The position numbers and the translations under genes were made by a program. The notes beneath the pieces were generated by a model that saw nothing but the letters and a program-made list of their open reading frames with translations, had not been told where the DNA came from and ran no database searches. A stretch of 9,296 nt of DNA from Planctomycetes bacterium RBG_16_41_13 (GTDB lineage: Bacteria; Planctomycetota; Brocadiia; Brocadiales; Brocadiaceae). Shown in pieces: positions 126 to 9,296 of this stretch (position 1 is its first letter; every line of letters starts with the position of its first letter). Location: positions 1 through 9,296 of the forward strand of contig MHYI01000027.1 in NCBI GenBank assembly GCA_001828295.1, written 5' to 3'.

Positions 126-449
126 TGTATGAGGAGCGACAAAAGACTTTTCTTCGTGGTATTGAACATTATTGACATCGGAGTATTCATCAAAAATCGT
201 GCATTGAAAAATATTTGGCAACTATTCAGCGCAATATATTTAAACCACCGAAACAAGACTCGCTCCCAAGCTCCTGTTTATTCGGCAGACAGGTAATTAC
301 CCAGGAAACTCTGTTTTTGGCGAGGATTTGATTTAACATCTCATTAAAAACCGGAGTTTCCCGAATAAGTGTGCTCCCAAACTGAAGTTTGGGGACAAGT
401 CGCTGTTTGATGGTAATGTTTACGCTGAATAGTTACCTTCAGATTTATA
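126..449. other. Non-coding stretch downstream of the peroxiredoxin gene
   Basis: I see no convincing gene here. A 55-codon plus-strand frame (129-296) has no ribosome site and no recognisable domain. The only structure I can support is the palindrome at 376-393, listed separately. A related but broken sequence (CTCCCAAGCTCCTGTTT) begins near 262. The stretch may be the decayed remainder of the gene at 3-125. Confidence 0.5.
376..393. repeat. Short palindrome downstream of the peroxiredoxin gene
   Basis: CCCAAACT and AGTTTGGG form a perfect 8-bp inverted repeat separated by only GA. It lies 56 nt past the peroxiredoxin stop codon. There is no T-run after it on either strand, so it is not a classic intrinsic terminator. 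It could protect the 3' end of the transcript or be one copy of a dispersed palindromic repeat. Confidence 0.55.
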
Positions 450-971
450 TTAACCCTTACCCAAGGTCTTCTTTCCTGGTTTCCATTCAACAGGACAAAG
501 TTCTCCGGTCTGTAAAGCATTGAGTACTCTAAGAATCTCTTCGACACTTCTCCCAACGCCCAGATCATGAACGAGTTGGTATTTTATTTTTCCTTCAGGA
601 TCAATAATAAATGTGCCCCTTAACGCGATACCTTTATCCTCAAGCAACACTCCATATTTTCTTGAGACTTCTTTTGTGATATCACTGAGCAGCGGGTAAT
701 TAAGTTTCCCAAGATCCTTAAGCCAAGCCTTGTGTGAGAATACGCTGTCAATGCTTACCCCAAATACCTGGGCATTGAGCGATTTAAAATCTCCGTCTTT
801 CTTTGAAAATTCCGTTATTTCCGTTGGACAAATAAAGGTAAAATCCAGGGGATAGAAAAATAGCACCACCCATTTACCCTTATAATTATCCAGACTAAAA
901 TCCTCAAATTTTTCACCCACAACACCTTGTAGTGTAAAACAAGGTGCACATTGTCCTACTTGTATACCCAT
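450..971 (-). CDS. Typical 2-Cys peroxiredoxin (AhpC/TSA family)
   Basis: A 173-residue cytosolic thiol peroxidase that would reduce hydrogen peroxide and organic hydroperoxides. The peroxidatic cysteine is C48 in PLDFTFICPTE, preceded by the family's P41 and T45. The resolving cysteine is C159 in GELCPVEWKPG. Both are present, so the typical 2-Cys mechanism with an inter-subunit disulfide is expected, reduced by thioredoxin or an AhpF-like partner not in the window. The C-terminus stops at KKTLGKG and lacks the YF tail, and no GGLG loop is seen, so an over-oxidation-resistant enzyme is likely. An extra CAPC pair (C8, C11) near the N-terminus is unusual. The ATG at 971 follows a strong GGAGGG ribosome site at about 976-981. 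The gene has its own promoter and stands alone. Confidence 0.95.
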   Translation of the reverse strand: MGIQVGQCAPCFTLQGVVGEKFEDFSLDNYKGKWVVLFFYPLDFTFICPTEITEFSKKDGDFKSLNAQVFGVSIDSVFSHKAWLKDLGKLNYPLLSDITKEVSRKYGVLLEDKGIALRGTFIIDPEGKIKYQLVHDLGVGRSVEEILRVLNALQTGELCPVEWKPGKKTLGKG

Positions 972-1008
972 ATTTCCCTCCGTTCTTTAAAATGAAAATA
1001 TTGCCATT

Positions 1009-1023
1009 CAATAATGATTACCG
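1009..1023. promoter_or_regulatory. Possible Fur/PerR-type operator in the peroxiredoxin leader
   Basis: The 15-mer CAATAATGATTACCG has the palindromic core TAATnATTA at its centre. That core matches the middle of the 7-1-7 box bound by PerR and other Fur-family regulators, but the outer three bases on each side do not match. It sits right at the predicted transcription start of the peroxiredoxin gene, where a repressor would block initiation. AT-rich palindromes arise easily by chance, so this is only a candidate. Confidence 0.25.
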
Positions 1024-1051
1024 ATTATATAGCGCTGAATGTGAAAATCAA
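1024..1051 (-). promoter_or_regulatory. Sigma-70-type promoter of the peroxiredoxin gene
   Basis: On the minus strand TTGATT (1051-1046) and TATAAT (1029-1024) are separated by 16 bp. Transcription would start near 1017, leaving a leader of about 45 nt that carries the strong ribosome site of the downstream gene. Confidence 0.55.
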
Positions 1052-1065
1052 GTAATATTTCGCTG

Positions 1066-1443
1066 TTATTTTTTTATTACGAAAAAGGTCAACGCCATTA
1101 CTTGAAAAACAATGGCTAATAATAGATAGGAATGAACATCTCCGTTACGGTGAAGGTAGGCAAAAATGAGGGAGCCAAATACAAAACACTGTATTACAGA
1201 GGCCATGATTGGTAACCAGGAAGCGGGTTCATAGGTAAGACTACGGTTAATATTCTTTACTTCGCGTAATATCGATTCCAGGACATAGTCATTTTCTTCA
1301 CATTTTTCTTCCGTTTTTGTTTGGCCGGCAAGGCAAGCGCCGCAGATTACCGTTCCTCCTTCCTGATACAACGCATTTCCTGATTCAATATCAATTTTGG
1401 AAAGACTTCTTTTGCAGTTGGCACATACTCTGATTTCTAACAT
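1066..1443 (-). CDS. Small zinc-ribbon membrane protein of unknown function
   Basis: I do not recognise this 125-residue protein as a named family. Its N-terminus carries two CxxC knuckles, C7-A-N-C10 and C34-G-A-C37, spaced like a zinc ribbon. A further unpaired cysteine is C48. A charged linker (about 42-72) follows. Two hydrophobic segments at about 76-97 and 104-123 should be membrane helices joined by a short HRNGDVH loop. The protein ends in KK. The likely topology is a cytosolic metal-binding head on a two-helix anchor, but this is inferred. The ATG at 1443 has no clear ribosome site, yet it must be used or lie further upstream, because the first CxxC begins at residue 7. It is 94 bp upstream of the peroxiredoxin gene, which has its own promoter, so co-function is not implied. 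Confidence 0.7.
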   Translation of the reverse strand: MLEIRVCANCKRSLSKIDIESGNALYQEGGTVICGACLAGQTKTEEKCEENDYVLESILREVKNINRSLTYEPASWLPIMASVIQCFVFGSLIFAYLHRNGDVHSYLLLAIVFQVMALTFFVIKK

Positions 1444-1473
1444 ACGGAATTAATTATTCGAAAGGTTTTCATA

Positions 1474-1534
1474 TTTTGTAACAATTTAGTTTTTTGAAAA
1501 AGACTCAAGTGTTACCAAAAAACTAAAATGTTAC
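1474..1534. repeat. Long inverted repeat built from the GTAACA..TTTAG motif
   Basis: GTAACAATTTAGTTTTTT (1478-1495) and AAAAAACTAAAATGTTAC (1517-1534) are complementary at 17 of 18 positions, with a 21-nt loop. The loop end holds another version of the motif on the minus strand (GGTAACACTTGAGT, from 1516). No T-run follows the stem on either strand, so a simple intrinsic terminator is unlikely. The left arm with its flank (1474-1500) matches 9209-9235 at 25 of 27 bases. Confidence 0.8.
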
Positions 1535-1559
1535 CTAAACTGGCATAGCCAGCATTTCT

Positions 1560-1629
1560 CAATCCTCAGTCCTCAATCTGCAATCCTCAATCTGCCGACT
1601 GCCGATTGCCGACTGTAGATTGTAGCTTG
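1560..1629. repeat. Degenerate heptanucleotide tandem array
   Basis: Ten consecutive 7-mers can be read without a gap: CAATCCT, CAGTCCT, CAATCTG, CAATCCT, CAATCTG, CCGACTG, CCGATTG, CCGACTG, TAGATTG, TAGCTTG. The unit drifts from a CAATCTG type to a CCGACTG type to a TAGATTG type while period seven is kept exactly. No reading frame is associated with it. Confidence 0.85.
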
Positions 1630-1640
1630 CAGAAGGGACA

Positions 1641-1675
1641 ATTAAATATTTTGCCAAAAAATGCAAAGAAATTAC
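1641..1675 (-). repeat. Composite intergenic repeat, copy A (two conserved blocks)
   Basis: Read on the minus strand this holds GTAATTTCTTTGCA (1675-1662), one spacer base, then TTTTTGGCAAAATATTTAAT (1660-1641). Both blocks recur without mismatch on the plus strand at 9130-9143 and 9167-9186. There they have the same order, but 23 bases lie between them. It lies downstream of the response-regulator stop, next to the heptad array. Confidence 0.8.
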
Positions 1676-1705
1676 CGATAAGGTACTAAATTGTTGCCAT
1701 CTTTT

Positions 1706-3067
1706 TTATTTCAAGTGGTAAAGGTCTAGCTTTCTATAAAGAGTTCTTTCGCCAATCCCAAGCATTCTGGCGGCTTCTTCTCTATTGCCTCCCACACTGG
1801 CTAATGTGCATTTAATGAGTTCTATTTCTGCATCCTCCATAGTCATTCCCGCCATCAAACCATGAGAGACTGGCATCTCGTCGCTCTTTTTTTCGATATG
1901 ATCGGGCAGGTCTTCAACATCTAAATATTTTTTCGTGGTAATAACTACCATGCTTTCTATGCAATTCTTTAGTTCTCTGATATTGCCCGGCCAATGGTAT
2001 CTTAATAATATTTTTCTGGCTTCAGGGGTAATTTGCAAAATTTCCTTACTATATAATCTGGAAAATTCACGAATAAATGTGTCAATGAGCAATGGAATAT
2101 CTTCAAGCCGTTCGCGGAGAGGAGGCAGTTTTATGCGAATAACATTTAATCTGAAGTACAGGTCTTCCCTGAATTTTCCTTCTTTTATAAGATTTCCAAG
2201 TTCCTGATTCGTGGCAGCTATTAAGCGCACATCTACTTCAATGGATTCGTTGCTGCCGATGCGCGTAAGCACCCCGTCTTCTAACACACGCAACAGTTTT
2301 GCTTGTGCGGAAAGAGGCATGTCGCCTATTTCATCAAGAAAGAAAGTGCCGCGGTGTGCGTATTCAAACTTCCCCTTCCGCTGATACAACGCCCCGGTAA
2401 ATGATCCTTTTTCATGTCCGAACAATTCGCTTTCTAGAATATTTTCCGGAATAGCGGCAGAATTAAGGATTACCAAAGGATTATGCTTCCTCAGGCTGTT
2501 ATTATGTATGGTTTTTGCTATCAGTTCCTTCCCTGTGCCGCTTTCCCCGGTAATCAATACGGTGGCATTCGTTCCGGAAATCTGATTTACCATGGTCAAT
2601 ACCTTTTGCATACTGGCGCTGTTGCCAATAATTCCTGTAAGGCCATATTTTTCATCAAGCTGTTTCTGGAGCAATATGTTATTTCTAACCAGATTTTGTT
2701 TTTCAACGAGTTTATTAATTTCTGCGCGCAGATGGTTAATATTAATTGGTTTCAGAAGAAAGGTAGCGGCGCCTTTTCGCATGGCATCAACGGCAGTTTC
2801 AACAGTGCCGTATCCTGTTATCAAAATAATTTCCGCTTCAGGCAATTTTTCCTTAGTCGCTTTAAGAATTTCCATGCCGCTGAAATCATGCATAATCAGG
2901 TCGGTAATTACGACGTCTATCTCTTCCGTTTCAATAATCTTCAAACCCTCTTTGCCACTGGTAGCAACAATACATTTATATCCTACCTTTTGTATTGCTT
3001 CCGCCGTAGCATTTGCATGTTCTTCGTTATCATCGATGATCAGAATTGTTGTATTATACTTAGACAT
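1706..3067 (-). CDS. NtrC-family sigma-54-dependent response regulator
   Basis: A 453-residue transcription activator with the three classic modules. The receiver (about 1-120) has the acidic pair D12/D13, phospho-acceptor D56, T84 and K106. The AAA+ domain (about 145-385) has Walker A GESGTGKE (174-181), Walker B GTFFLDEIG (240-248), the sensor-I stretch AATN (284-287) and FREDLYFRLNV (299-309), which should hold the arginine finger. The sigma-54 contact loop reads GSFTGA (221-226) instead of the usual GAFTGA. A Fis-type helix-turn-helix ends the protein (GGNREEAARMLGIGERTLYRKL). Phosphorylation by the adjacent kinase should drive ring assembly and ATP-dependent opening of sigma-54 promoters. 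The ATG at 3067 overlaps the kinase stop by 8 nt, which indicates translational coupling. Its targets cannot be read from the window, and I saw no convincing -24/-12 site here. Confidence 0.95.
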   Translation of the reverse strand: MSKYNTTILIIDDNEEHANATAEAIQKVGYKCIVATSGKEGLKIIETEEIDVVITDLIMHDFSGMEILKATKEKLPEAEIILITGYGTVETAVDAMRKGAATFLLKPININHLRAEINKLVEKQNLVRNNILLQKQLDEKYGLTGIIGNSASMQKVLTMVNQISGTNATVLITGESGTGKELIAKTIHNNSLRKHNPLVILNSAAIPENILESELFGHEKGSFTGALYQRKGKFEYAHRGTFFLDEIGDMPLSAQAKLLRVLEDGVLTRIGSNESIEVDVRLIAATNQELGNLIKEGKFREDLYFRLNVIRIKLPPLRERLEDIPLLIDTFIREFSRLYSKEILQITPEARKILLRYHWPGNIRELKNCIESMVVITTKKYLDVEDLPDHIEKKSDEMPVSHGLMAGMTMEDAEIELIKCTLASVGGNREEAARMLGIGERTLYRKLDLYHLK

Positions 3068-3875
3068 TTTCGAGGTTTATGGGTAATTGTATGGTAAAAT
3101 TTGTACCTTTGCCTTCATGGCTTTGAACGCTAATTGTGCCTCTGTGTTCTTCTATAATTCTTTTCGTAGTAGGAAGCCCGAGCCCGGTGCCGGCAGTTTT
3201 TGTAGAATAGTACACTTGAAAGATTTTATTGAGCGAATCGTTGGAAATGCCATGGCCTGTATCTGTGATATCTATTTGTACCGACTTTTTTATTTTTGAG
3301 GTTCGAATCATAAGTTCCCCTCCGTGTTCCATAGCCTGCTGCGCGTTGATAATAATATTAAGAAAGGCTTGTTTTATAAGTTTACTGTCAATATAACATA
3401 AAGGCAAACCAGGATGATAGCTTTTAAGAACAACGACATTTTTTTGTTTGATTTCCGGTGTTGCAAAGTTGATTACTTCATCTAGAATTTCATTAACATC
3501 ACAGTATTCTAATTCCAGTTTTTGTCCTTTGGCAAACCGGAGAAAATCATTCAGGATTTCTTCTAATCTTAGTGCTTCTTTCTGGATAATCTCTATTTTT
3601 CTATAAACTTTCCGGGTGTCGTCTCCTGAAGCGCCAATGATATTTTGCAGGTCTTCTTTTAGAAGTTGTAGGTGAATGTTTAGGGTGCTTAGCGGGTTTT
3701 TAATCTCATGGGCAAGTCCCCCTGCCAATGTACCGGCAAACGCCAATCGTTCAGAATCAATCGTGCGTTTTTCCAGTTCTTTTGTTTTACGAATTATCCC
3801 CCTGTTATAATAGTAATATGCTAACGGAACTACGATTATTACAGACGCAATAGCACCGGTCAGATATTGAATCAC
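3060..3875 (-). CDS. Membrane-anchored sensor histidine kinase without a sensor domain
   Basis: A 271-residue kinase with one N-terminal hydrophobic segment (about 4-24) followed directly by the dimerisation domain, with phospho-acceptor H56 in LAHEIKNPLS. The ATP-binding domain shows the N box around N177 (FLNIIINAQQAM), the G1 box DTGHGI (205-210), the F box IFQVYYSTK and the G2 box GTGLGL (229-234). There is no periplasmic, PAS or HAMP region, so the signal must come through the membrane helix or a partner protein. It should phosphorylate D56 of the overlapping regulator. The GTG at 3875 has no ribosome site and lies only 9 bases past the T-run of the cold-shock gene terminator. The same frame stays open upstream through the terminator, so the true start is uncertain. 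It probably relies on read-through or on an unrecognised start. Confidence 0.92.
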   Translation of the reverse strand: MIQYLTGAIASVIIVVPLAYYYYNRGIIRKTKELEKRTIDSERLAFAGTLAGGLAHEIKNPLSTLNIHLQLLKEDLQNIIGASGDDTRKVYRKIEIIQKEALRLEEILNDFLRFAKGQKLELEYCDVNEILDEVINFATPEIKQKNVVVLKSYHPGLPLCYIDSKLIKQAFLNIIINAQQAMEHGGELMIRTSKIKKSVQIDITDTGHGISNDSLNKIFQVYYSTKTAGTGLGLPTTKRIIEEHRGTISVQSHEGKGTNFTIQLPINLENV

Positions 3876-3884
3876 TTTTTTAAT

Positions 3885-3930
3885 AAAAAAAAGAGCCAGG
3901 AAGATGGCTGAATTTGCTTCCTCCCGGCTC
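3885..3930 (-). terminator. Intrinsic terminator of the cold-shock gene
   Basis: On the minus strand GAGCC, a 3-nt bulge and AGGAAG pair with CTTCCT and GGCTC around a loop of about 13 nt. Eight consecutive T residues follow directly (3892-3885). It begins 24 nt past the cold-shock stop codon. The kinase GTG lies just beyond the T-run, so this terminator also controls how much transcript enters the two-component genes. Confidence 0.85.
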
Positions 3931-3954
3931 GTTAAATGATATTTTATATATTTT

Positions 3955-4161
3955 TTAAGAAGCTACGCGATTAACTTTTTGGGCTTGCAGACCTTTCGCT
4001 CCTTCGACGACTTCAAATTCCACCTTTTCTCCGTCTTCGAGTGTTTTGAATCCGTCACCGCCAATATTAGAATAGTGAACAAAGACGTCTCCTCCACCCT
4101 CTTGCTCGATAAAACCAAAACCCTTTTTTGCATCAAACCACTTAACCTTGCCAATCGCCAT
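3955..4161 (-). CDS. Cold-shock domain protein (CspA family)
   Basis: A 68-residue single-domain RNA and single-stranded DNA binding protein, the normal length for bacterial Csp proteins. RNP1 is KGFGFI (13-18) and RNP2 is VFVHY (26-30), with the surface aromatics W8, F15, F17, F27 and H29 in place. Such proteins melt mRNA secondary structure and act as RNA chaperones and anti-terminators. Which Csp paralogue this is cannot be told. I start it at the ATG at 4161 because [10 protein letters not shown] is the family N-terminus and AAGGAG lies 9 nt upstream. An in-frame ATG at 4194 would add 11 residues without support. A long leader and a strong terminator frame it as a single-gene unit, and it sits directly downstream of pnp, another gene linked to cold growth in E. 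coli. Confidence 0.95.
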
Positions 4162-4344
4162 TATCTCATTCTCCTTATATTTAATACTTACCACTTTAAA
4201 AAAACGAACAAACTTAGCAACATTTTACTTTACCGTACGGTTCTACATCCTCCTAAAAAGATAAAAAAGATATAAAATAGATATATTATTTGTTTACAGA
4301 ATCTCTAATACGTCCTCCTTTTTGAAATGTTCCCAAATATTATA
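4162..4344 (-). promoter_or_regulatory. Promoter and long 5' leader of the cold-shock gene
   Basis: A perfect TATAAT at 4344-4339 (minus strand) lies just after the pnp stop codon. The -35 region is weak (AGTTAA or GTTAAA at 17 or 16 bp). Transcription from about 4332 would give a leader near 170 nt, similar to the long leader of E. coli cspA. The leader holds three purine-rich ribosome-site-like tracts: GGAGG at 4318-4314, AGGAGG at 4254-4249 directly followed by ATGTAG, and the real AAGGAG before the gene. It also holds the palindrome ACCGTACGGT (4232-4241). No other gene is seen in this gap. Confidence 0.5.
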
Positions 4345-4361
4345 CCCAATTTTAGTTAATT

Positions 4362-6479
4362 TTAACTCTTAGGAGTGAGGGGTTGTTCGCTTTCCTTTAA
4401 AGCAGCTTTCCGGCTTAATTTGACTCTTTTTTGGTCATCTATGCCGATTACTTTTATCATTATTTCCTGGCCTACCTCCACAACATCACCCGCCTTTTCA
4501 ACATATCCGTCAGAAAGCTCGGAAATGTGTACCAAGCCATCGTGCCCGGGAATTATTTCAACAAACGCCCCGTATTCTTTTATTGATAAAACTTTTCCCT
4601 TATACGTTTTCCCCACCTCAACTTCCTTCGTCATATTTTCAATCCATGTTTTTGCTTTTTCTGCCGATTCAGCAAGGGTTGCGGAAACGATTACCGTTCC
4701 ATCATCTTCAATTTCAATTTTTGCCCCGGTTTCTTCCTGTATTTTCTTTATGTTTTTTCCGCCAGGGCCAATAACCATTCCGATTTTTTCCGGGTTAATT
4801 TTAATCTGTACAATTTTTGGCGCGTATACAGAAATTTTTTCTCTCGGTTTTTCAATGACTTTTTCCAGTTCCTGAAGAATATGAAGCCTGCCCTCCCTGG
4901 CTTGCGCCAGCGCATCACGCATTATTTTCTCAGTAATTCCAGCAATTTTTATATCCATTTGCAACGCGGTTACGCCCTGAGCCGTGCCTGCAACCTTAAA
5001 ATCCATATCTCCCAGGTGATCTTCAGTTCCTAATATGTCAGATAAAATACATACACTGTTCTCTTCTTTCACCAAGCCCATAGCAATGCCGGCTACCGGA
5101 GCTTTTATAGGTACACCGGCATCCATTAAAGCAAGCGTCCCGCCGCAAACTGATGCCATCGAAGAAGACCCGTTAGATTCGGTAATATCAGACACCACAC
5201 GGGTTGTGTAAGGGAATTTGTTCGATGGTGGAAGGACTTCTGCCAGTGCCCGCTCCGCCAATGCCCCATGCCCGATTTCTCTCCTGCCAGGCCCTCGCAA
5301 CGGCTTTGTTTCACCAACACAAAAAGGCGGAAAATTGTAATCCAGCATAAATTTCTTTGAATATTCATCTTCAAGTCCGTCCACTTTTTGTTCATCCATC
5401 GTGGTGCCGAGGGTTGCCACAACAATTGCCTGTGTTTCTCCCCTTGTAAACAAAGCAGAGCCATGTGCTCTGGGGAGAATGCCAACCTCACAGGTAATAG
5501 GCCTTATATCCTTCAATCCACGGGAATCAGGCCGCAATCCTTTGGATACTATTTGTTCCCGTACTACAACTGTTTCAACAGTCTCAAAGATTGCTTTAAT
5601 TTCTTTTGGTGTAGGTGCATTTTCGACACCTTCAACACAGTATTCATTAATTATGGCCGCAAGTATTTCATCAAGCGCTTCTTTTCGGTATCCTTTTCCC
5701 GGAGTCAGATTCTTTTCTACAATAGCGGTATAATATTTTTGTTTAATTTCTTCCATGAGTTCTTTATTCATCATGGAAGGAGCAACAATTTGCTTTTCTT
5801 TTCCGCATTTTTCAATAAGTTCGTGTTGAAGAGTTATGATTTCTTTTATAGCTGCATGTCCAAACATAATGGCGTTCACCATCTGTTCTTCTGGAATTTC
5901 CTTTGCAGACGCCTCAACCATCATAACAGCATCCTCGGTTCCGGAAACAACAATGTCCATACTGCTTTGAGCCAACTCGGCATGTGTGGGGTTGATAATA
6001 AATTCCCCTTCAATTTGCCCAACCCTTACCGAGCCGGTAGGTTTGCTAAAGGGAATGCTGGAAATGGATAATGCGGCGGAAGCTCCCACCATCGCAAGTA
6101 TATCAGGATCATTTTCCTTATCGGCGGAAAGTACTATTGACATAACCTGCACTTCGCGGAAGTACGTATCTGGGAAGAGTGGCCTGATAGGGCGGTCTAT
6201 CAACCGCATGGTGAGGATTTCTTTTTGAGAAGGCCTTCCTTCTCTCTTGAAAAAACCGCCAGGAAATTTCCCGGCAGCATATGTCTTTTCCCGGTAATCG
6301 ACGGTAAGTGGAAGAAAATCTACGTTTCCCTTTTCTTCTGATGCAGAAACCGCTGTAACTAATACTATCGTTTCGCCATATTGCACTAATACGGCACCAT
6401 CGGCCTGCCTTGCGACCCGGCCTGTTTCTATGCTAAGCGCTCTATTGCCGATCAACTTCTCCACTTTAAATTGTGCCAT
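4362..6479 (-). CDS. pnp: Polyribonucleotide nucleotidyltransferase (PNPase)
   Basis: A 705-residue exoribonuclease, the usual length. It degrades RNA 3' to 5' by phosphorolysis and can add tails in reverse. The order is a first RNase PH domain (about 1-140, with GGFFKREGRPS and RPLFPD), a helical linker, and a second RNase PH domain (about 315-545) with GPGRREIGHGALAER (396-410) and DILGTEDHLGDMD (481-493). In the latter, D487 and D493 should match the catalytic aspartates of E. coli PNPase. The KH domain has IGPGGKNI (570-577) and the S1 domain spans about 622-690. Nothing is missing, so an active homotrimer is expected. The ATG at 6479 has AGAGG about 7 nt upstream. It follows rpsO by 117 bp, the widely conserved rpsO-pnp order, and is probably co-transcribed with it. 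Confidence 0.98.
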   Translation of the reverse strand: MAQFKVEKLIGNRALSIETGRVARQADGAVLVQYGETIVLVTAVSASEEKGNVDFLPLTVDYREKTYAAGKFPGGFFKREGRPSQKEILTMRLIDRPIRPLFPDTYFREVQVMSIVLSADKENDPDILAMVGASAALSISSIPFSKPTGSVRVGQIEGEFIINPTHAELAQSSMDIVVSGTEDAVMMVEASAKEIPEEQMVNAIMFGHAAIKEIITLQHELIEKCGKEKQIVAPSMMNKELMEEIKQKYYTAIVEKNLTPGKGYRKEALDEILAAIINEYCVEGVENAPTPKEIKAIFETVETVVVREQIVSKGLRPDSRGLKDIRPITCEVGILPRAHGSALFTRGETQAIVVATLGTTMDEQKVDGLEDEYSKKFMLDYNFPPFCVGETKPLRGPGRREIGHGALAERALAEVLPPSNKFPYTTRVVSDITESNGSSSMASVCGGTLALMDAGVPIKAPVAGIAMGLVKEENSVCILSDILGTEDHLGDMDFKVAGTAQGVTALQMDIKIAGITEKIMRDALAQAREGRLHILQELEKVIEKPREKISVYAPKIVQIKINPEKIGMVIGPGGKNIKKIQEETGAKIEIEDDGTVIVSATLAESAEKAKTWIENMTKEVEVGKTYKGKVLSIKEYGAFVEIIPGHDGLVHISELSDGYVEKAGDVVEVGQEIMIKVIGIDDQKRVKLSRKAALKESEQPLTPKS

Positions 6480-6596
6480 TTTGACCTCTCAATCTATGTT
6501 CTTTAAATTTTCCATTGACCAGCAAAGGAATGGTTAGTTTTAATTGTCTTATGCATTGGTGTGGGTATGTATATTGATTCCTCCATGAATTTAGAT

Positions 6597-6863
6597 TTAT
6601 TTGCGTAAACCTAGTTTATTTATTAGTTTTTTGTATCTTTCGCGGTCTGTTCTTGATAAATAATTAAGTAACGCTGAACGATTGCCTACCATCTGCAGCA
6701 ATCCTCTTCTCGATGCATGATCTTTCTTATGCACCTTCAGATGGCCCGTTAAATGATTGATTCGTCCGGAGAGCAAAGCTATCTGCACTTCTGAAGAACC
6801 TGTATCATTTTCATGAATTTTAAGATCATTAATAATTTTCTGTTTTGCTTCTTTACTTATCAT
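6597..6863 (-). CDS. rpsO: 30S ribosomal protein S15
   Basis: An 88-residue primary 16S rRNA-binding protein of the small subunit platform. It shows the S15 signatures [11 protein letters not shown] (17-27) and [16 protein letters not shown] (41-56), including H41, D48 and S51, which correspond to rRNA-contact residues of E. coli S15. It ends in the family's LGLRK. I choose the ATG at 6863 because it gives the standard length and N-terminus ([10 protein letters not shown]). An in-frame GTG at 6893 would add ten atypical residues. The ribosome site for the ATG is modest (AAAGGA about 12 nt upstream), while the GTG has AGGG a few bases upstream, so the longer form cannot be excluded. It has its own promoter and a structured leader, and pnp follows. 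Confidence 0.95.
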
Positions 6864-6901
6864 CGAAACACCAAATCCTTTAAAAATACCCACATTGCCC
6901 T

Positions 6902-6925
6902 ATGTGTAAATACCTATTAACACAT
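6902..6925 (-). promoter_or_regulatory. Hairpin in the rpsO leader
   Basis: On the minus strand ATGTGT and ACACAT form a 6-bp stem. After one T/T mismatch the inner bases AAT/ATT can extend it. The element lies inside the predicted leader, between the start site near 6945 and the S15 start codon. S15 is known to repress its own translation through leader RNA structures that differ between bacterial groups, so this is a candidate binding element by position only. Confidence 0.4.
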
Positions 6926-6951
6926 CGTTAAAACAAACAATATAAGAGCAA

Positions 6952-6981
6952 AGTATAGCAAAGTCCATCTGTTCTTTGCAA
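6952..6981 (-). promoter_or_regulatory. Sigma-70-type promoter of rpsO-pnp
   Basis: On the minus strand TTGCAA (6981-6976) and TATACT (6957-6952) are 18 bp apart. The expected start near 6945 gives a leader of about 80 nt to the S15 ATG. The position upstream of a ribosomal protein gene supports the call. Confidence 0.55.
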
Positions 6982-7013
6982 CAAAAAAAATGGGGTATGC
7001 CGTGGTAATTAAG

Positions 7014-7076
7014 GTACGATTTACGATTTAGATTTAAATCGTACTTCGTACATTGTAAATCGTAAATCGTAACCGG
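7014..7076. repeat. Heptanucleotide array forming a 16-bp perfect hairpin
   Basis: Nine 7-mers are read without a gap: GTACGAT, TTACGAT, TTAGATT, TAAATCG, TACTTCG, TACATTG, TAAATCG, TAAATCG, TAACCGG. The left and right halves are inverted: TACGATTTACGATTTA (7015-7030) is the exact reverse complement of 7056-7071. The 25-nt middle holds two smaller palindromes, GATTTAAATC and GTAC-TTC-GTAC. It lies 22 nt past the stop of the TPR gene and upstream of the rpsO promoter. No T-run follows directly, so a rho-independent terminator role is uncertain. Confidence 0.85.
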
Positions 7077-7098: not shown

Positions 7099-9051
7099 CT
7101 ATTGTTGCCGGGGGGTTAATTCATTGATAGCCTTCATCATTTCCTCCGCCTGTTTGTGCTGTGGATTTATACGCAATGACTCTTTTATGTGAAAAAGGGC
7201 TTTGGCAGTATCGTGAAAATGGTCTTTATAAACAACTCCAAGACTGAGATGCACATCGGCATTGCCGGGGTCTAGTTTGTATGCTTCCAAAAGTTTATTA
7301 TACGCATCTTCCACCCGACCTTTTTTGAAGTAGATTACCGCCATATTATAGTGCGCCAGCGCGAAGTTGCTTCTGATTTTTAATGCCTTTTCTAATTCAG
7401 AAAGGGCTTCTTCATACCTTCCCGTGTCAATATAAACGCTTCCGAGATTATTGTGCGCATCCGCATAATAGGGGTTTGTTTTAAGCGCCGCCATATATTC
7501 ATTAATTGCCATGTCGGGCATGCCTTTTCTTTTATAAAGGAGTCCCAGATTGTTATGCGCTTCCGGGTATTGTTCCCTCAGCCGAACGGCAAATTGCAGC
7601 TCCTCAATCGCCTTATCCTGCATTCCTTTCAAAGAATACGCCGCGCCGAGATTGCTGTGCGCCTTTGGATGTGTCGGCATTGCCTGTATAGAGCCTTCAA
7701 ACGCCTGAATTGCCTTATCGATTAAACCATTATGGTAATAAAAATATCCAAGGCCATTGTAAATCCTGTAACTCTTTGGCGAACGGCGTATCGTTTCCAT
7801 GCTAAAGGTAAATTCATTAAGCCAAATCCTGTTTCTCTGTATTGTGCCCCACATCAGCAAAAGACAAATTATCACGACAAATGACAGAAAATAATGCCTT
7901 CTTCTATAAAAACATTGAAAGCCTTTGTTAAATGCCAGGCCCGCAAACAGAGCAAATCCTATGCCTGGGATATAAAGATATCTTTCCGCCATTATATTCA
8001 GCAGAGGGGCAATGTTAAGCACGGGCAAAAGCGTTACAAAAAACCAGGTGAAAGCAAAAACCCACTTCCCGGAAAAACAACTTTTTTTTACCAGTACCAT
8101 AGTGCAGCAGATTACTATAAGAGAAATAATAAACGCCCCATCGAAGACAGAATATGCCACAGGAACAACATAATCCGCATTTAAGGGAATGGGAATGAAG
8201 AAAAGTTTAAGGTAATACCCAACTACCTTTGTCATCATAAGGGCATTTATAGAGAGGCTTTTTTCAGGATAAAATATCACTTCTCCCGGATTTTTAAATA
8301 CCTTGAATCGCAAAAACAAATATATGCCGCTAATAATAATGTATCCAATATAGTGGGTAACAAAACGGCCCCTGAGAAAATAAACGCTGCGCGGAAGCAT
8401 ACCGGCACACTGGTGGCTGGCAATCTCTTTTCTTTTAAAAATAAAATCGTGGGCAAATGCAAGGAGCGGAAAGGTGATTGCCATTTCCTTTGATAATAAC
8501 GCAAATAAATAGGCAATCAGGGATACCGCATAAAAGGCAGAAAGATTCCTGACGTTTGCCGTTTTATCTGAAGATTTGAGAAAAAAAATAAACGCAATCA
8601 ACAAAAAGGTCGCAGATAAAAGATCCTCGCGGTAACTTATGGCATTTACTGCCTCAGAGAATACCGGATGTATGGAAAACATCAGGCAAGAGATCAAAGA
8701 GACCAGACGACTCCCAAAAAGCCGATACGCCAGAAAATACAATAAAACCACATTAACGGTATGGATAATGTTATTGACGAAGTGGTATCCTGCAGGCCTT
8801 AATTGCCACAGGGCATAGTCGATAAAATACGAAAGGGTAACAATGGGGCGGTACGTCAGTTCATTAGATACAGCAGCATATTTTTTGCTAAAAAGTGCGG
8901 TAAGATAACGCCATTCACGAATAAAGTGATTGTTAGTTATCGTGAGGTAATCGTCATAAACAAACGTATTTGCCAGAGAATTGAGATAGACGACAAGAGG
9001 GGTGGCAACGATTATCGCAAATAACAAAATATGATATTTTCTGTTTAACAT
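7099..9051 (-). CDS. TMTC-like GT-C membrane glycosyltransferase with C-terminal TPR array
   Basis: A 650-residue protein in two halves. The first about 400 residues hold roughly ten membrane helices. After helix 1 comes FVYDD (about 30-34), matching the acidic pair in the first external loop of GT-C/PMT-type enzymes. Further motifs are SIHPVFSEAV with YREDLLSA (about 126-147) and AERYLYIPGIGF (about 355-366). These resemble the HP..E.V...R.DLL and ERYLY.P..GF motifs of TMTC-type O-mannosyltransferases. The C-terminal part (about 426-632) has six TPR repeats, typically with N-L-G-x-x-Y and A-x-x-x-x-x-x-A-L. A role in transferring a lipid-linked sugar to protein is inferred. The substrate is unknown, and a non-catalytic TPR membrane protein is possible. 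I choose the ATG at 9051; a TTG at 9057 is in frame. Neither has a ribosome site. It is transcribed toward rpsO. Confidence 0.8.
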   Translation of the reverse strand: MLNRKYHILLFAIIVATPLVVYLNSLANTFVYDDYLTITNNHFIREWRYLTALFSKKYAAVSNELTYRPIVTLSYFIDYALWQLRPAGYHFVNNIIHTVNVVLLYFLAYRLFGSRLVSLISCLMFSIHPVFSEAVNAISYREDLLSATFLLIAFIFFLKSSDKTANVRNLSAFYAVSLIAYLFALLSKEMAITFPLLAFAHDFIFKRKEIASHQCAGMLPRSVYFLRGRFVTHYIGYIIISGIYLFLRFKVFKNPGEVIFYPEKSLSINALMMTKVVGYYLKLFFIPIPLNADYVVPVAYSVFDGAFIISLIVICCTMVLVKKSCFSGKWVFAFTWFFVTLLPVLNIAPLLNIMAERYLYIPGIGFALFAGLAFNKGFQCFYRRRHYFLSFVVIICLLLMWGTIQRNRIWLNEFTFSMETIRRSPKSYRIYNGLGYFYYHNGLIDKAIQAFEGSIQAMPTHPKAHSNLGAAYSLKGMQDKAIEELQFAVRLREQYPEAHNNLGLLYKRKGMPDMAINEYMAALKTNPYYADAHNNLGSVYIDTGRYEEALSELEKALKIRSNFALAHYNMAVIYFKKGRVEDAYNKLLEAYKLDPGNADVHLSLGVVYKDHFHDTAKALFHIKESLRINPQHKQAEEMMKAINELTPRQQ

Positions 9052-9058
9052 CTTCAAA

Positions 9059-9087
9059 TGTATATTAATTTCAGCTTAAGTTCGCAA
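9059..9087 (-). promoter_or_regulatory. Candidate promoter of the TPR membrane-protein gene
   Basis: On the minus strand TTGCGA (9087-9082) and TATACA (9064-9059) are exactly 17 bp apart. The expected start falls at or next to the A of the ATG at 9051, which would make the mRNA leaderless. That fits the lack of a ribosome site and favours the ATG over the TTG at 9057. It is a pattern match only. Confidence 0.4.
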
Positions 9088-9129
9088 AAATCAGCTCACA
9101 GGGTAACTGTTTTCATTTTTCATTTAGCA

Positions 9130-9186
9130 GTAATTTCTTTGCACACTTCCATTCGTCAGTGCGTGCTTTTTGGCAAAATATTTAAT
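9130..9186 (+). repeat. Composite intergenic repeat, copy B (two conserved blocks)
   Basis: GTAATTTCTTTGCA (9130-9143) and TTTTTGGCAAAATATTTAAT (9167-9186) repeat the two blocks of 1641-1675 without mismatch and in the same order. Here 23 unrelated bases separate them, against one base in the other copy. The block at 9209-9235 follows 22 bases later and completes the shared arrangement. Confidence 0.8.
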
Positions 9187-9208
9187 GTTGAAATACGCAT
9201 ATTTAATT

Positions 9209-9235
9209 TTTTGTAACACTTTAGCTTTTTGAAAA
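9209..9235 (+). repeat. Second copy of the GTAACA..TTTAG repeat block
   Basis: These 27 bases match 1474-1500 at 25 positions; the differences are a C for A and a C for T. The core reads GTAACACTTTAGCTTTTTG. Here the motif is single, while in the left gap it is present as an inverted pair. Confidence 0.8.
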
Positions 9236-9243
9236 CTCATGTA

Positions 9244-9264
9244 GTGCGACGAGGTTCGTCGCAC
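9244..9264. repeat. GC-rich perfect hairpin, REP-like
   Basis: GTGCGACGA and TCGTCGCAC form a perfect 9-bp stem around GGT. It is markedly richer in G and C than its surroundings. The stem is followed on the plus strand by CAAAAAA, not by T residues, so it is not an evident terminator for that strand. On the minus strand no T-run follows either. Its look is that of a dispersed palindromic (REP-like) element, but only one copy is in the window. Confidence 0.6.
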
Positions 9265-9296
9265 CAAAAAACGTTGTGCGATAAAGAATAGGGTCT

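Follow-up and report, generated by a model that had tools for sequence, protein, structure and literature searches.

Three sequence blocks recur, in the same order, in two intergenic gaps of a 9,296-nucleotide stretch of DNA from Planctomycetes bacterium RBG_16_41_13 (this whole stretch is referred to here as the window), and this recurrence is most probably explained (probability about 0.85) by two families of short non-autonomous mobile DNA, an IS66-type MITE and a second repeat named E2, which would be nested in opposite ways in gap A and gap B, the MITE probably being mobilized in trans. Anammox-type genomes contain a MITE family whose terminal inverted repeat (TIR) is block 3; blocks 1 and 2 belong to the left end of E2. 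The order, places and strands of the blocks in both gaps are as the first-pass annotation had described them, as are the spacers of 1 base (gap A) and 23 bases (gap B) between blocks 1 and 2, and block 2 is an exact 20-bp match between the two gaps (pair I4). The suggestion that the blocks mark where a small non-autonomous element ends holds for block 3, as a MITE terminal repeat, and for blocks 1 and 2 together, as one end of another short mobile repeat, but not for the three as one composite: they are pieces of two unrelated repeat families, and their order results from nesting at a different point in each gap. The nested arrangement is ordinary in kind. Ordered, conserved blocks between anammox genes can, then, reflect nested mobile DNA instead of regulatory sites, and for intergenic repeats present in hundreds of copies in anammox-type genomes an IS66-type transposase accompanied by a DruA-domain protein is a plausible source.

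The window and its relatives

The window contains open reading frames that we take to encode a peroxiredoxin, a sigma-54 response regulator, a histidine kinase and a cold-shock protein, together with, on the same reading, polynucleotide phosphorylase, ribosomal protein S15 and a TPR protein. Identity between the polynucleotide phosphorylase and its counterpart in Candidatus Kuenenia hertensis is 89%, and the window matches a genome of the genus Kuenenia, G015 (contig of 4,406,153 bp, about 4.4 Mb), at about 95% identity over 416-6998 and 7112-9074. In the same genus, the genomes of the Kuenenia stuttgartiensis strains KUST, MBR1 and CSTR1 share over 99% identity (PMC7709395). All genome-wide counts concern the genomes of relatives, G015 being the closest of those searched, and the gene contexts of the repeats are based on crude longest-ORF gene calls.

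Nested elements in gaps A and B

Gap A is best read as an E2 copy nested within a MITE, as suggested by a TIR on each side and a flanking duplication, although the duplication is equal at only 7 of 8 bases and the right TIR has only 12 bp (Table 1). Two further occurrences of block 3 in this gap were absent from the first-pass annotation: a copy at 1478-1500 on the plus strand, forming an inverted pair with 1516-1534 (pair I7), and a half copy at 1697-1686. In G015, the orthologous gap has the same layout, with one 19-bp unit fewer and with a 23-nt segment present between blocks 1 and 2, and the apparently free spacer between these blocks is therefore an indel. Kuenenia hertensis (L001) lacks the whole gap-A insertion, and the MITE is thus polymorphic between relatives at the one site examined in this way.

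Gap B appears to hold the reverse arrangement, a MITE nested within E2, the right end of the MITE lying beyond the window. The E2 body, which matches that of L191, for example, is broken at 9213 by the MITE, and is uninterrupted at this insertion point in L183 and L191. The hairpin of this MITE also lies within a MITE in L168, and another MITE inside E2 was found at L207. G015 has other sequence at the gap-B site. A further dispersed repeat, with TAGCTTAAG and CATCGTTTCTGGGTG and distinct from both E2 and the MITE, was seen in the G015 orthologue of gap B and at L204 and L274.

Table 1. Features as assigned in the window, with the related insertion sequences in the last rows
Feature	Position	Strand	Sequence or detail	Reading or basis
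Block 1	1675-1662 (1662..1675); 9130-9143	minus; plus	GTAATTTCTTTGCA	part of E2 left end
Block 2	1660-1641 (1641..1660); 9167-9186	minus; plus	TTTTTGGCAAAATATTTAAT	part of E2 left end
Block 3	1534-1516; 9213-9235	minus; plus	GTAACAnTTTAGnTTTTTGAAAA	MITE TIR
Gap A, left 8-bp target-site duplication of MITE	1470..1477		CATATTTT	equals 1698-1705 at 7/8 bases
Gap A, putative IS66-type MITE	1478..1697		220 bp, E2 between its terminal repeats	TIRs and flanking 8-bp repeat
Gap A, left TIR	1478..1500	plus	block 3	
Gap A, tandem TIR units, two of 19 bp	1497..1534	minus	1516-1534 is block 3 of the first-pass annotation; 1497-1515 degenerate	TRF period 19
Gap A, E2	1535..1689	minus	left end TTAGTACC (1689); tail CTGGCTATGCCAGTTTAG (1552-1535)	G015 profile, orthologue L165/L291
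Gap A, E2 body, 7-bp-unit array	1558..1622			TRF periods 7 and 14
Gap A, right TIR	1686..1697	minus	CTAAATTGTTGC	cut to 12 bp where E2 begins (junction GCAACAATTTAG/TACC)
Gap A, right target-site duplication	1698..1705		CATCTTTT	
Gap B, E2 left part	9124..9212	plus	TTAG 9124-9127, blocks 1 and 2, start of body	by-eye comparison with E2 copies
Gap B, optional 23-nt segment of E2	9144-9166		this E2 is without TACCTTAT	
Gap B, putative MITE in E2 body	9213..9296	plus	left TIR 9213-9235, hairpin GTGCGACGAGGTTCGTCGCAC; right end beyond window	
Gap B, predicted target duplication of MITE			AATTTTTT-like; second copy would fall beyond window base 9296	
Autonomous IS66 copies, G015	L315, L316, L317		2368 bp each	
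Autonomous IS66 copy, G002	L301		2412 bp	
L316, TnpC ORF	1363-2901			overlaps next ORF
L316, DruA-domain protein ORF	2720-3601			overlaps TnpC ORF

The MITE family

Block 3 was sought in 14 genomes with up to 3 mismatches and was present in 13 of them, 12 of which had at least 22 matches; G013 had a single match, against 2 for the control, and G014 none. Eight of the 12 rich genomes are assigned to Kuenenia, Brocadia, Jettenia, Loosdrechtia or Brocadiaceae, and the other four to Planctomycetes or Planctomycetota. In G015, the search recommended by the first-pass annotation (up to 3 mismatches) gave 484 matches against 2 for the control, with positions listed for about 100 of the matches. A sample of 246 genomes of the phylum, searched with 2 mismatches, contained block 3 in 11 genomes (7 to 395 matches each) and none in the remaining 235, whereas the control pattern had 3 matches in all over the same genomes. 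Convergent pairs, at the pairing threshold used, accounted for 21 of 44 matches in 400 kb of G015, the rest being without a partner.

The ends of 75 paired MITEs gathered from loci, which include some chance pairs (L017, L131 and L197, for example), were used to look for target duplications. An exact 8-bp flanking repeat is present in 27/75, as against 0.04 expected by random pairing (27/74 without L167, which is counted twice via a tandem TIR), and the flanks are equal at 7 or 8 of 8 bases in 43/75. Mean flank identity at length 8 is 0.74, against 0.40, and none of the other lengths between 2 and 14 shows a similar excess. Flanks agree at 4 or more of the 8 bases in 61 of the 75 elements; these are 102-320 bp long (median 166), which is too short for a transposase gene, and their interiors are diverse, forming 26 clusters (70% of interior length). 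Members of the family have TIRs of about 19-26 bp that start with GTAACA and enclose a variable interior rich in hairpins, and they are flanked by target duplications of 8 bp. These MITEs are mostly intergenic, with the midpoint within a called ORF in only 6/75. Among the 75 examined, 67 have a gene on both sides; 6 of these lie between convergent (+,-) genes, against 37 of 242 background gaps, and 16 between divergent genes, against 38 of 242 (raw counts). The MITEs are therefore not concentrated between convergent genes, and are somewhat more often found between divergent ones.

By eye, the MITE interiors of L141, L144, L153 and L162 look like swapped hairpin modules, and GTAGAGACGCATTGCAATGCGTCTCTAC, in the middle of the GAGAAAC..-type palindrome region, is present in some MITE copies and missing from others. 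A second MITE type, with ends GTAACTATTCAGCGTA, lies at 218-436 of the window, where matching 8-bp flanks were not seen; at this site, all that G015 has is a short palindrome made of the two ends, the interior of about 180 bp being absent. The same ends also bracket another IS66 element (L308, 767-2483), with an 8-bp flanking repeat, caaatttc.

The IS66-family partner

A search for IS66 transposases in four genomes showed that the ends of the MITE also bracket a whole insertion sequence (IS) at some loci. GTAACACTTTAGTTCTTTGAAAA at both ends and an exact 8-bp duplication are present in 4/4 of the autonomous copies, three of them in G015 and one in G002 (Table 1). Four of the 14 IS66 matches in G015 have the left end and three of these have both, the fourth (L314) having the left end only; block-3 ends were not found in the loci of the other 10, several of which bear the end GTAACTATTCAGCGTA. 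Neither of the two IS66 matches in G001 has block-3 ends, despite the 67 block-3 matches of this genome, and one of the four in G003 (L312) has block-3-like ends, which are imperfect; the MITE is without a clear IS66 partner in these two genomes.

The ends of IS66-family elements typically begin with GTAA and their target duplications are typically of 8 bp; small tnpA and tnpB genes are usual in the family, but are missing from some subgroups. The first ORF of L316 encodes a TnpC of 512 amino acids (PF03050, E 1.6e-37; zf-IS66 PF13005, E 3.4e-6) and the second a DruA-domain protein of 293 amino acids. Accessory tnpA or tnpB were not found in the two main ORFs searched, PF14236 (DruA) being the sole domain match of the second. 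This DruA-domain protein has 4367 relatives with E values up to 1e-3; one Brocadia protein among the best 120 of these joins PF03050 and PF14236, and only two plasmid records contain a relative. DruA is best known from the Druantia anti-phage system, whereas the protein found here looks like a partner in transposition. An IS66-family IS with TnpC and DruA is thus the likely source of the MITE transposase, judging from the common ends and the length of the duplication, and would cut and paste the MITE in trans.

The E2 repeat

The left end of E2 was searched for with an extended block 1 (TTAGTACCTTATCNGTAATTTCTTTGCA, 28 positions, up to 3 mismatches) and a reversed-pattern control. Block 1 with its neighbouring bases is clearly above chance in G015 (4.4 Mb), with 64 copies against 0 control matches, and no copy was found in the 14 other genomes searched. 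The left boundary is sharp in the profile of the 64 copies, and TTAG is kept there in most of them, element and target being indistinguishable at this point. Block-2-like sequence is in place (up to 3 edits) in 57/64 copies. The 23 nt that separate block 1 from block 2 in gap B are present as a segment in 20/64, and the functional sites with free spacers proposed in the first-pass annotation are unsupported, the spacer difference being an indel of this segment. A tail like CTGGCTATGCCAGCTTAGG lies within 500 bp in 28/64 copies, and the body consists either of repeated 7-bp units or of other sequence that is rich in AT or in C. No TIR was found in E2, and the best of many combinations of offset and length for a target duplication gave 0.31 against 0.27 (27 pairs), which was taken as noise. 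Block 2 alone has 16 and 10 matches in G001 and G002, against 3 and 5 for the controls (3 mismatches); these were not accepted as E2, the left end having 0 matches in both genomes.

The E2 copy of L168, which is without the tail, is absent at the matching sites of G001 and G002; parts of the alignment separated by 132 bases in the query are only 11 bases apart in G001. E2 is therefore inserted DNA, as seen at L168 and also, within the MITE, in gap A. Elements of this family are of about 100-400 bp, with no TIR found, a fixed left end (TTAG/TACCTTATC...), the optional 23-nt segment, a variable body, often of 7-bp repeats, and, in many copies, the fixed tail CTGGCTATGCCAGCTTAGG. The left end lies at a TIR-like position in 7/64 copies, compared with 58/1754 TTAG sites, a modest excess that hints at MITE ends as E2 targets. 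With less assurance, and on the basis of this excess, E2 may enter next to TTAG, and would have landed in the TTTAG of MITE ends.

The left end is found near genes (median 50 bp), and the mapping of hits against gene starts and strand, as proposed in the first-pass annotation, revealed no consistent gene orientation: the 50/64 copies with a called gene on both sides are distributed over 17 (-,-), 16 (+,+), 9 (+,-) and 8 (-,+) contexts. A regulatory role found no support in the gene orientation of either E2 or the MITEs, and a regulatory site with a fixed gene context was dropped for the inconsistent orientation of E2. At L264, just 2 bases separate the left end (E2 from 601) from the 5' side of a tRNA-Val gene (522-598, minus strand), and one copy (L174/L268) adjoins a tRNA-Arg gene. 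At 7011-7072, the window has an inverted array of 7-bp units where G015 has a different 7-bp-unit array resembling part of E2.

Why the block order recurs

With E2 within a MITE in gap A and a MITE within E2 in gap B, the common order of the blocks would have arisen from independent nesting. The ordered set does not generally occur together in G015: a block-3 match lies 50-350 bp downstream of only 13 of the 64 E2 copies, and within 300 bp upstream of 1/64. Rough expectations for the downstream figure, from 44 block-3 matches in 400 kb of G015 and 22% of the sample lying outside called ORFs, are 2/64 when the density is taken over the whole genome and near 10 on the assumption that every block-3 match is intergenic, and the co-occurrence of E2 and block 3 is therefore mostly what crowding in intergenic DNA would produce.

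The recurrence of the order in both gaps, and the greater frequency of block-3 matches downstream than upstream of E2, could also be accounted for by one functional composite, such as a set of regulator-binding sites with an order conserved near genes. This is very improbable, given that 51/64 E2 copies have no TIR match in these 300 bp downstream, that block 3 occurs in genomes in which no E2 left end was found, that gene orientation around E2 is inconsistent and that the insertions are missing in related species; the downstream asymmetry is, moreover, partly expected, because the E2 left end lies near genes, with the body on the other side. The three blocks also seem ill-suited to be the ends of a single non-autonomous element. 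The gap-A TIRs (1478-1697) do enclose blocks 1 and 2, such that this copy could move as a unit, but the MITE of gap B starts inside E2 rather than around it, and this improbable reading was dropped because the ends of E2 and of the MITE differ in boundaries, genome ranges and copy numbers. Hardly any credence can be given to block 3 as a REP/BIME-type repeat or a transcription terminator instead of a MITE end. Its high copy number, its location mostly between genes, its palindromic form when paired and the many matches without a visible partner would suit such a repeat, but convergent gene pairs are not preferred, and the 8-bp target duplications, together with the same ends on a transposase-bearing IS, led to its rejection.

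For E2 itself, the absence of a clear duplication, a left end adjoining TTAG and a hairpin close to either end (TTTGC..GCAAA and CTGGC..GCCAG) recall the usual layout of IS200/IS605 elements. E2 might, on this basis, be a passenger of a single-strand HUH (Y1) transposase, with neither TIR nor duplication, with subterminal hairpins and with insertion 3' of TTAG. This is possible, but doubtful: none of the 22 PF01797 (Y1) loci in G015 holds the E2 left end, a tail-like match at 3/22 is about what E2 density predicts (rough estimate), and the hairpin stems, though present, show no covariation beyond shuffles, with 269/295 pairs in the head stem of 59 copies (shuffled mean 268) and 235/280 in the tail stem of 56 tail-like matches (shuffled mean 232). 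The candidate was set aside, with no partner among these loci. A wider proposal, which is speculative and rather unlikely, is that E2 might represent a hitherto undescribed class of short mobile repeat in bacteria, with fixed ends that are not inverted repeats, a body reassembled between these conserved ends out of 7-bp units or other sequence, and preferred entry beside TTAG, including inside MITE ends, and that IS66-type MITEs might act as frames gaining or losing hairpin interiors at a fixed site, as at 218-436 of the window compared with G015. The nesting of an IS66-type MITE and E2 remains the preferred explanation of the two gaps.

Comparison with known systems

In a literature search covering titles and the beginnings of abstracts, no description of these MITE or E2 families was found, nor anything joining Kuenenia with miniature inverted-repeat elements or DUF4338 with IS66. 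The partner IS resembles the IS66 family in its TnpC, with PF03050 and zf-IS66, its GTAA ends and its 8-bp duplications, but differs from usual members in that its second ORF encodes a DruA-domain protein (PF14236) rather than a small tnpA or tnpB product, and in that its ORFs overlap. IS-derived MITEs are known in bacteria, such as that of Cardinium (PMC9769881), and have been reviewed (PMC10969869). As far as the available portions of these two sources go, the block-3 MITE is similar in being short and non-coding, with TIRs common to a full IS; it also has target duplications, a high copy number and a mostly intergenic location. Its likely parent belongs to the IS66 family, a name absent from the main text of the review (PMC10969869), and it further differs in the diversity of its interiors (61 elements in 26 clusters). 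As a short mobile repeat with a tandem array, E2 is reminiscent of the Porphyromonas gingivalis MITE with an internal minisatellite, as outlined in the accessible part of its description (PMC4596501), but that element, as a MITE, has inverted ends, and none were found in E2. Large sulphur bacteria have TAACTGA heptamer repeats throughout their genomes, according to the accessible part of the report (PMC4853749). The arrays of E2 are likewise genome-wide 7-mer repeats, but, unlike the TAACTGA repeats as presented there, they mix several 7-mers inside a bounded element.
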